A stretch of DNA of 48,382 nt from Candidatus Nitrosopumilus sp. (GTDB taxonomy: Archaea > Thermoproteota > Nitrososphaeria > Nitrososphaerales > Nitrosopumilaceae): positions 1 through 48,382 of the forward strand of contig JAANXA010000015.1 of NCBI GenBank assembly GCA_018263505.1, read 5' to 3'. How positions within the stretch are numbered: the stretch's first letter is position 1; each line of letters begins with the position of its first letter. Below the pieces are notes generated by a model. That model saw only the letters and a program-made list of their open reading frames with translations, was not told the origin of the DNA and ran no database searches. Shown in pieces: positions 124 to 2,201 of this stretch. A program made the position numbers and the translations under genes.

Positions 124-510
124 TTATCGTTGTTTTTGACTTAGTTTGATTGTTTGATATGTCCATTCTCGACCAGTTCTTACTCTATCCACCCTGCCTT
201 TTGAGGAAAATCTTGCCAAGTAAGTGGAAATAATACTTAGTTTTATAGGCTCATTGAATTCATCTTCATATTTTTCTAGAATGTTTGTAGTTGTGAATTT
301 TCCTATTGGGAAAAATTTATCAACAACATACCAAATTTTTGTGCCTACAGAATCCATATTAGTTGGGTCTTGTTCTTCTTCAATATTCATTAAATCCATC
401 ATTTCAAATATTTTTAATACTTTTTCTCTAGTTACATTACCTTCTAATTTAATATCATAACGTGCGCCATCTGCATCTTCCATATCTATTCTAATCCGTT
501 TTTTTGCCAT
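124..510 (-). CDS. Conserved hypothetical protein with winged-helix-like C-terminus
   Basis: 128 residues, ATG start. The N-terminal third is a charged beta hairpin (KKRIRIDMEDADGARYDIKL) followed by a helix. A linker rich in E, D and N leads to a C-terminal region (residues about 62-125) with the order helix, helix, helix and a basic wing (GRVDRVRTGREWTYQT), which suggests a winged-helix fold. The order of parts resembles the 167-residue protein at 46610-47113. No catalytic motif is visible. It is transcribed away from the candidate origin, so the 480-base non-coding stretch is its upstream region. A transcription or DNA-binding role is inference only. Confidence 0.6.
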   Translation of the reverse strand: MAKKRIRIDMEDADGARYDIKLEGNVTREKVLKIFEMMDLMNIEEEQDPTNMDSVGTKIWYVVDKFFPIGKFTTTNILEKYEDEFNEPIKLSIISTYLARFSSKGRVDRVRTGREWTYQTIKLSQKQR

Positions 511-565
511 TTTTCGAGATCTAAAGGATCAAATGTTAACAATTCAACTGATCCAAGAATCTTAG

Positions 566-585
566 TTAACAAAGTAGTTTGTTAA
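566..585. repeat. Perfect palindrome in origin region
   Basis: TTAACAAA (566-573), a 4-base spacer GTAG, then TTTGTTAA (578-585). Related TGTTAACA octamers occur at 534-541 and 713-720, and TTTTGTTAA recurs near 788. It lies upstream of the gene at 124-510 and on the outer side of the ORB boxes; its role is unknown. Confidence 0.5.
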
Positions 586-669
586 GTTTGACTGCCTGTT
601 CCACGCCTAGACATTATTTTGTTATTAACAATTAATCATTTCAAATCCATTAAATAAAGAAATATCCAT

Positions 670-704
670 GCCTGGAGTGGAAATAAAGGGGGTAGAATTA
701 GGTT
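670..704 (+). repeat. ORB-like box 1 (direct repeat copy 1)
   Basis: Contains CCTGGAGTGGAAATAAAG followed by GGGG and then TAGAATTAGGTT. It matches the copy at 732-766 at 31 of 35 positions (differences at 688, 692, 693 and 695). The core GTGGAAA and the downstream G-run fit the archaeal origin recognition box bound by Orc1/Cdc6. Confidence 0.8.
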
Positions 705-731
705 ATTCACAATGTTAACATCAACCTTAAC

Positions 732-766
732 GCCTGGAGTGGAAATAAAAGGGTCAAAATTAGGTT
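732..766 (+). repeat. ORB-like box 2 (direct repeat copy 2)
   Basis: Second copy, CCTGGAGTGGAAATAAAA followed by GGG and then TCAAAATTAGGTT. It starts 62 bases after copy 1, close to six helical turns, so both boxes would sit on about the same face of the DNA. It is immediately followed by the AT-rich tract. Confidence 0.8.
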
Positions 767-827
767 TTTTTTAATTTTTTTAACATTACATTAACATTTT
801 GTTAATAATTTATTATTTGGACTCAAA

Positions 828-845
828 ACTCACACACCAATATTT
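828..845 (+). repeat. Left arm of inverted repeat flanking the cdc6 promoter
   Basis: ACTCACACACCAATATTT is the reverse complement, at 17 of 18 positions, of bases 981-998 (AAACATTGGTGTGTGAGT). The 13 innermost bases ACTCACACACCAA match perfectly. The left arm overlaps inverted ORB box 3. Confidence 0.75.
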
Positions 846-853
846 CCACTCTC
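835..853 (-). repeat. ORB-like box 3 (inverted)
   Basis: Read on the minus strand it is GAGAGTGGAAATATTGGTG. It shares AGTGGAAATA and a following G-rich stretch with boxes 1 and 2, but points the opposite way, so the AT-rich tract after box 2 lies between boxes of opposite orientation. Confidence 0.6.
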
Positions 854-931
854 TTTTTTTAAAATTTATTTTTTTTAAAAATCTAAATCTAACTAAAAAT
901 AATTAATTACCAACTTAACTACAATTACTAT

Positions 932-942
932 TCTATACTATA
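932..942 (+). promoter_or_regulatory. TATA-like element upstream of cdc6
   Basis: TCTATACTATA, centred about 60 bases before the cdc6 ATG. With usual archaeal spacing, transcription would start near 963 and give a short leader containing the right arm of the inverted repeat. Confidence 0.35.
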
Positions 943-980
943 CCCTCATAATTCAGATATGATAGTATGTTCTTGATAAG

Positions 981-998
981 AAACATTGGTGTGTGAGT
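981..998 (+). repeat. Right arm of inverted repeat, ends at the cdc6 ATG
   Basis: AAACATTGGTGTGTGAGT, complementary to 828-845. It ends one base before the ATG at 999 and contains the alternative GTG start at 993. Together with the preceding bases (AAGAAACATTGGTG) it looks like a degenerate ORB with a GAAAC core and a G-rich tail, so it may be an Orc1/Cdc6 operator. Confidence 0.6.
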
Positions 999-2201
999 AT
1001 GTCAGATCCAATTGATAGGTTACTTGATGCAGCTGAATCTGGAAAATCTATAATTAAAAATAGAGAAATTTTACATTTTACCTATATTCCAAATACTATT
1101 CTACATAGAAATTCAGAACAAGAACAAGTAACTCAATCCTTACTACCTATTTTAAAACAATCAAGACCATCTAATCTCTTAGTTTATGGTAAACCTGGGA
1201 CTGGAAAAACATTGGTAGTTAAAAAAGTAATTTCAAAAATTCAAGATAGGGTAGAAAAATCTAATTTTCCAATTAAATTAGTTTATTCAAATTCAAAAGA
1301 AGAAACAACACTTTATGGATTATTGGTTAGTTTGGGTAGACAATTAAGCCTAACTGACAAAGAATTACCTACAACTGGTTTAGCAATTAGTGAAGTCTTC
1401 AAAAGAATACTAAACAAAATTAATAATAATAAATTTAATGCGATATTCGTAATAGATGAAATTGATTATCTTGCTCAATTAGTTTCTAAAACTGGTAAAG
1501 ATATTTTATATCAACTTACGAGAGCAAATGAACGATTAACTAATGGTTCACTTACTTTGGTAGGTATTTCTAATGATTTAACATTCAAAGAAAAACTTGA
1601 TCCAAGAGTGATAAGTAGTCTTGGTGAGGAAGAAATTGTATTTACAAATTATAATGTTGAACAAATAAAAAAAATTTTAGAGGAAAGAATTCATGAATCA
1701 TTTATTGAAAATTCTGTTGAAGAACCTGCACTAAATCTATGTGCAGCTCTTGCTGGTGGTGAACATGGGGATGCTCGAAGAGCCATTGATTTACTTCGGG
1801 TAGCAGGAGAATTGGCTGAGCGTCAGCAATTAGATAAAGTTTCAGTTGAACAGGTAAGAGAGGCATCACAAAAAATAGAGGAAAATAAAGAAGAAACATC
1901 ACTCAAATCATTTCCATTACATGAAAAATTGATAATTTTAGCTATAATGAAGGCAAATGGTTCTTCTACAGGTGAGATTTATTCATCATACAAAAATCTA
2001 TGTAAAATAGTTGGTCGCGACGAACTCACTCAAAGAAGAATCACTCAAATGTTAAGTGAAATTGAATTATCTGGAATAATTAATGGTAGATTAATTCATC
2101 AAGGAATACATGGCAGGACAAAAAAATTTAAACTCACAATATCTTCTGAGTTAATTAAAAAAACCTTCAAAGATGATTTAACTTTGCAAGATATTGTCTA
2201 A
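999..2201 (+). CDS. cdc6: Orc1/Cdc6 replication initiator (AAA+ ATPase)
   Basis: Binds ORB boxes and helps load the MCM helicase. Counting from ATG 999 (400 residues): Walker A GKPGTGKT at 64-71, Walker B FVIDEIDYL at 150-158, sensor 1 GISNDL at 189-194, sensor 2 GDARRAIDLL at 257-266, then a C-terminal winged helix (about 300-400) that reads DNA. An in-frame GTG at 993 is an alternative start; ATG is preferred because the protein then begins MSDPIDRLLD and the inverted repeat ends just before it. TATA-like CTATACTATA lies at 933-942. Its 3' end overlaps the convergent DP1 gene by 24 bases. Confidence 0.95.
   Translation: MSDPIDRLLDAAESGKSIIKNREILHFTYIPNTILHRNSEQEQVTQSLLPILKQSRPSNLLVYGKPGTGKTLVVKKVISKIQDRVEKSNFPIKLVYSNSKEETTLYGLLVSLGRQLSLTDKELPTTGLAISEVFKRILNKINNNKFNAIFVIDEIDYLAQLVSKTGKDILYQLTRANERLTNGSLTLVGISNDLTFKEKLDPRVISSLGEEEIVFTNYNVEQIKKILEERIHESFIENSVEEPALNLCAALAGGEHGDARRAIDLLRVAGELAERQQLDKVSVEQVREASQKIEENKEETSLKSFPLHEKLIILAIMKANGSSTGEIYSSYKNLCKIVGRDELTQRRITQMLSEIELSGIINGRLIHQGIHGRTKKFKLTISSELIKKTFKDDLTLQDIV

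Follow-up and report, generated by a model that had tools for sequence, protein, structure and literature searches.

In oriC1 of Sulfolobus, ORB2 and ORB3 are inverted around the DUE (PMC12141716), and the Sulfolobaceae arrangement as a whole comprises Orc1-1, ORB1 to ORB3 and a DUE with a UBP-bound ucm; UBP is described only for Desulfurococcales and Sulfolobales and is considered a recent acquisition there (PMC12141716). The common archaeal ORB motif of Ori-Finder 2 and DoriC reads TCCA[CG]T[TG]GAAA[TC][GA]AAGGGGT, and the taxonomic ORB clusters of the same work contain no thaumarchaeal cluster (PMC4164010). In Nitrosopumilus maritimus (1645 kb), one origin was mapped in vivo by marker frequency, to the extent that the work of Pelve et al. 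(2013) is cited in PMC4010727 and PMC5333045; this is another species, and its anatomy is likened to the present one by its sequence.

Here we analyzed 48,382 nucleotides from Candidatus Nitrosopumilus sp. (contig JAANXA010000015.1, the window), whose intergenic region 511–998 is very probably the chromosomal replication origin of this Nitrosopumilus-like thaumarchaeon, a degree of confidence which covers the origin itself only. In common with Sulfolobaceae oriC1, the locus adjoins orc1-1, carries ORBs with a G-string and has an AT-rich zone of comparable length enclosed by an inverted ORB pair whose G-strings face away from it. Unlike oriC1, it has a weak ORB4, a further direct ORB pair that faces inward with a spacing of 61–62 bp, a TTAAC array and a winged-helix neighbour.

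Initiator gene and ORB boxes

As outlined in Table 1, the boxes lie next to an orc1/cdc6 initiator gene, as the preliminary description had claimed, and the nearest solved chain to its product is S. solfataricus Orc1-1 (2qby_A). The two 35-base repeats of that description (670–704 and 732–766) were recovered by a repeat search of the window with 31 of 35 positions identical and starts 62 bases apart, and the inverted core at 841–851 (TATTTCCACTC, which is GAGTGGAAATA on the minus strand) was confirmed. The description was incomplete in that it overlooked a fourth box at 975–998 and the TTAAC/GTTAAC repeats. In all, four boxes were identified that follow the ORB pattern of a core plus a G-string, ORB4 being degenerate.

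Table 1 Features of the origin locus and its neighbours in the window.
Feature	Position	Strand	Remarks
P0002, 128-aa winged-helix protein	124–510	-	divergent from the origin; single copy, class-wide
GTTAAC element	535–540		about -199 from ORB2
GTTAAC element	565–570		about -169 from ORB2
GTTAA element	581–585		about -153 from ORB2
TTAAC element in TTGTTATTAACAA	625–629		about -109 from ORB2
ORB1	672–697	+	CTGGAGTGGAAATAAAGGGGGTAGAA; repeat search, genome matches, relatives
GTTAAC element, ORB1–ORB2 interval	714–719		offset -20/-19; -20 occupied in 81/86 loci
TTAAC element directly before ORB2	727–731		offset -7
ORB2	734–759	+	CTGGAGTGGAAATAAAAGGGTCAAAA; 62 bp after ORB1
Three TTAAC/GTTAA elements (780, 791, 801)	780–805		10–11-bp steps, 87% AT ORB2–ORB3 gap
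ORB3	829–854	-	minus strand AGAGAGTGGAAATATTGGTGTGTGAG; relatives
AT-rich spacer ORB3–ORB4	855–975		proposed unwinding/MCM-loading zone; genus-conserved block about 880–945
ORB4	975–998	+	degenerate box GATAAGAAACATTGGTGTGTG; overlaps orc1 start region
orc1/cdc6, Orc1-1 type	999–2201	+	Pfam Cdc6_lid and Cdc6_C; NCBIfam TIGR02928 above cut-off

Within the 1.37-Mb assembly the 14-mer GGAGTGGAAATAAA has exactly two exact matches, both at this locus; the reversed pattern, used as control, gave 1+1 matches at one mismatch. The comparison with relatives, which had been proposed along with the initial reading, unveiled that the boxes are kept in over 80 of them. The spacing of ORB1 and ORB2 is 62 bp in 58 loci, 61 bp in 27 and 60 bp in a single one, and distant families also exhibit 61–62 bp; the pair lies about 270–330 bp from orc1. 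The offset between ORB2 and ORB3 is variable (mostly 77–98 bp, box start to box start). Furthermore, a 19-nt inverted repeat (828–846/980–998) was identified as ORB3 together with the degenerate ORB4, both sharing the tail GGTGTGTGAG. The ORB4 core deviates at three positions in the window and is present as the full AGTGGAAA in three other loci (L036, L106 and L174). An ORB4-like box not farther than 100 nt from orc1 was observed in 89 of 115 loci, compared to 0.4 expected from shuffles, and in the loci bearing it the ORB3–ORB4 gap mostly spans 106–129 bp with a median AT content of 0.82. By their sequences we classify ORB1 and ORB2 as strong, direct and rigidly spaced, ORB3 as inverted and ORB4 as weak.

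With respect to the box sequence itself, the initial statement that it differs from better-known ORBs is correct, but the box does not stand outside the ORB family, being the Nitrosopumilaceae version of CTCCAGTGGAAATAAAGGGGT. ORB1 and ORB2 read CTGGAGTGGAAATAAAGGGGT or near variants in Nitrosopumilaceae, and CTCCAGTGGAAATAAAGGGGT or near variants, the usual archaeal form (PMC4164010), in most other families of the class. Since these other families carry CTCCAGTGGAAATAAAGGGGT with the same 61–62 bp pair spacing, the unusual box is regarded as a family-level ORB variant with a change from CTCCAG to CTGGAG. Compared with the Ori-Finder 2/DoriC motif, the window box fits from AGTGGAAAT on, G-string included, and exhibits GG (or AG) instead of CC at positions 2–3, whereby the TCCA/TGGA symmetry is lost. 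Residue 370 in the wing of Orc1 is Arg in all 13 sequences from outside Nitrosopumilaceae and in none of the 28 from inside, and residue 371 is His in 28/28 Nitrosopumilaceae sequences. The box change from CC to GG appears to run parallel to the loss of Arg370, which is a lead and not a proof because the correlation stems from a single evolutionary event; the idea that residue 370 brought about the box change was set aside, this one event being inseparable from shared ancestry.

The same genome encodes a second, divergent Orc1/Cdc6 (437 aa, 29% identical; L291:3179-4492, contig C59). The region upstream of its gene holds not a single ORB and not more than 3 TTAAC per 500 bp, and with neither boxes nor a TTAAC cluster there it was rejected as marking a further origin; this paralogue is probably not an origin-linked initiator.

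AT-rich zones and box polarity

Two AT-rich zones are flanked by inverted ORBs, 767–828 between ORB2 and ORB3 (AT content 0.87) and 855–975 between ORB3 and ORB4 (0.82), compared to 0.707 for the whole window. The AT-rich tract previously noted between the direct and the inverted boxes is therefore real as such, but its implied role as opening zone is less likely than that of the ORB3–ORB4 spacer. The G-strings of ORB3 and ORB4 point outward (divergent) and those of ORB2 and ORB3 inward into their gap; next to orc1 in Sulfolobaceae-like genomes, the AT-rich zone with the ucm lies between ORBs whose G-strings face away from it. With respect to duplex stability, 855–975 holds stretches among the least stable 0.3–0.5% of the window and 767–828 stretches among the least stable 1.5–5%. 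Because of the Sulfolobaceae-like ORB polarity, the lower stability and a genus-conserved block, we consider it rather probable that melting and MCM loading would take place at 855–975 between the divergent ORB3 and ORB4 and not at 767–828. That the 767–828 gap serves this purpose, with its phased TTAAC triplet acting as melting repeats, appears doubtful: its 87% AT, its least stable 60-bp stretch (within the top 1.5%) and the three TTAAC elements phased at 10–11 bp would fit, but its inward G-strings are opposite to Sulfolobaceae oriC1, the ORB2-to-ORB3 offset varies among loci and the gap is less unstable than 855–975.

Within the favored 855–975 spacer, the conserved mid-spacer block has the genus consensus AATTAATTACAAACTAAAC and reads AATTAATTACCAACTTAAC in the window. 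The ucm sequence ATTATACAAAC was not found in this proposed unwinding zone, the mid-spacer block being different from ucm and variable within the family. Identification of the block with Sulfolobus ucm was rejected, as the CAAAC part is not kept in the family (window TTACCAAC, L161 TTACGAAC). In a Cenarchaeum-like locus (L174), a G-rich run, GGAGGGGGAGGGGAGGGGAGGGG, replaces the AT-rich ORB3–ORB4 spacer about 260–300 bp upstream of orc1 and might form a G-quadruplex.

The TTAAC array and the winged-helix neighbour

An unbiased hexamer count over 35 representative intergenic regions yielded TGTTAA as the top word (327 vs 32 expected, z=61) followed by GTTAAC (137 vs 7 expected), both above all ORB words, with 6–19 TTAAC/GTTAA per region. 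The locus is the densest 490-bp TTAAC window in the whole 48-kb window (13, next 6), in 0.4 Mb of a second genome (12, next 7) and in 1.2 Mb of the relative chromosome G092 (14, next 9), which has 1,645,259 bp and which we take to be that of N. maritimus SCM1. Of the three places that rank next in TTAAC density in N. maritimus, one overlaps coding sequence according to an ORF listing. Offsets from ORB2 are fixed in many loci at -200/-199, -169, -153, -110, -20, -7, +46, +57 and +68. Moreover, the array remains beside orc1 in three f2 genomes, in which the P0002 gene is located about 3 kb off, and in G111, where that gene is on a different contig. Since the offsets from ORB2 are fixed and the array stays with orc1 when the P0002 gene moves, we regard the array as an additional origin element, which is probably the binding site of a further protein.

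It is improbable that the array simply serves the divergent winged-helix gene as its operator. Three elements do lie directly upstream of P0002, which has a DNA-binding fold, but many others are situated between the ORBs at fixed offsets, and in f2 and G111 the upstream region of the displaced gene is not enriched whereas the array stays with orc1. Apart from the TTAAC elements, the region upstream of P0002 (511–634) forms a strongly conserved non-coding block with GACTGCCTAGCCCACGCCTAG-type words. An Rfam search of 1–1200 gave two sub-threshold chance matches only, and thus no indication that the conserved 511–650 block is a known RNA.

The P0002 family was detected in 145 of 150 genomes of the class with one match each, and its members adjoin orc1 divergently in 36 of 40 class-level loci. 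Outside the class, 13 genomes from six families (f14, f17, f20, f25, f31, f33) have the P0002 gene directly beside orc1 in divergent orientation; the search of phylum genomes gave no member in families f19, f26 and f28. Family f1 was equated with Nitrosopumilaceae and f26 with Sulfolobaceae according to named loci and motif content. In the AlphaFold model the C-terminal half is confidently predicted as a winged helix; the N-terminal beta-beta-alpha part is separate, and 15 residues are invariant across 31 sequences. The Foldseek hits were winged-helix repressors of a generic kind, all with E values of 0.001 or above. P0002 shares its fold with the BlaI/MecI-type repressors (PF03965, Penicillinase_R) and matches their profile weakly (best family member 1.1e-7), but the window protein stays below the cut-off (14.3 vs 22.6 bits) and has an N-terminal part of its own.

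Its gene linkage suggests a role of P0002 at the origin. In addition to our main reading, and not as an alternative to it, P0002 itself might bind the TTAAC elements and aid initiation as UBP does at the Sulfolobus ucm, a tentative idea at present. It is consistent with the class-wide linkage to the origin, which recurs in six families beyond the class, with the winged-helix fold and the absence of the gene from the ucm-carrying Sulfolobaceae-like family f26; on the other hand, P0002 is present, often beside orc1, in phylum families devoid of TTAAC enrichment, so that co-occurrence is incomplete. Outside the order, and likewise in genomes lacking P0002, the TTAAC array is weak or missing. It is conceivable, if somewhat speculative, that origins of Nitrososphaeria possess a second module of about a dozen TGTTAAC at fixed ORB offsets, bound by P0002, as the counterpart of UBP/ucm where UBP is lacking. 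Judged by title and abstract, the literature surveyed contains nothing relevant on GTTAAC elements at the origins of thaumarchaea or on a winged-helix protein there, which is in itself no proof of novelty.

Strand asymmetry and the proposed origin architecture

The original interpretation as an archaeal oriC is backed by conservation, synteny and the switch points of strand asymmetry. The region upstream of orc1 in N. maritimus has the same gene order, boxes and TTAAC elements as the window. As the assembly of the window consists of 68 contigs, skew was computed on sampled stretches of two complete Nitrosopumilus chromosomes. Measured by the GC-skew minimum, the test suggested at the outset, the locus would fail: the raw cumulative minimum in N. 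maritimus is about 758 kb away. This minimum proved misleading, however, and raw GC skew was abandoned as an origin finder here, its minimum lying on the far side of the chromosome. The corrected skew (T-A at fourfold-degenerate sites, gene orientation removed) switches at the locus in both chromosomes. In N. maritimus switches were found at position 0 and near 745–750 kb, explaining 66% of the variance (at most 2% in permutations); in the second genome (G022) the switch at 495–500 kb, with the orc1 start at 498,539, accounts for 51% (permutation maximum 21%). All 60 bootstraps placed the switch points within about 10 kb in each of the two chromosomes. On the inferred leading strand T exceeds A and, to a smaller degree, C exceeds G, and just right of the origin the window exhibits the same signs (T-A +0.086, G-C -0.254).

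The fourfold sites on the inferred leading strand of G092 have a sign opposite to the usual GC skew. G022 (stretches L215–L234) exhibits a further T-A switch near 190 kb and mostly negative values from about 1.31 to 1.58 Mb, an irregularity which may reflect a rearrangement or a second asymmetry boundary.

That the boxes are mere regulatory sites of orc1, i.e. an autoregulation operator, with the true origin elsewhere, is very improbable, for although the overlap of ORB4 with the orc1 start makes some autoregulation plausible, the asymmetry switches at the locus in two chromosomes, the rigidly spaced ORB1 and ORB2 are remote from orc1 and the second orc1 paralogue lacks such boxes.

For the origin itself we propose that the product of the adjacent orc1 would bind the four ORBs and that Orc1-ATP on ORB3 and ORB4 would direct two MCM hexamers into the AT-rich 855–975 spacer, a loading step which builds on the knowledge of Orc1, ORBs and MCM in Sulfolobus (PMC12141716). 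ORB1 and ORB2, presumably on one helix face and about six helical turns apart, could provide an accessory anchor for further Orc1 or a regulatory pair, and ORB4 over the orc1 start may let Orc1 keep its own expression in check. For the TTAAC array, recruitment of an accessory DNA-binding protein is probable, with P0002 as a candidate.

With a fourth box, strongly conserved TGTTAAC repeats and a conserved gene for an uncharacterised DNA-binding protein, the origin is more elaborate than on first reading. Cumulative GC skew failed to locate the origin in N. limnia (PMC3043068), and our analysis suggests a reason for this failure in the group and which skew works, namely the corrected fourfold T-A skew. 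The change from CC to GG with loss of Arg370 in the Orc1 wing offers a natural switch of initiator/box specificity, and P0002 is a candidate with respect to the question raised in PMC12141716 whether UBP-analogous origin proteins exist in other archaeal lineages. Ammonia-oxidising archaea are very abundant and their origin anatomy is scarcely described in the literature surveyed; the locus yields a testable map of it, comprising box polarity, a rigid ORB pair, a probable loading zone and a second class of elements.
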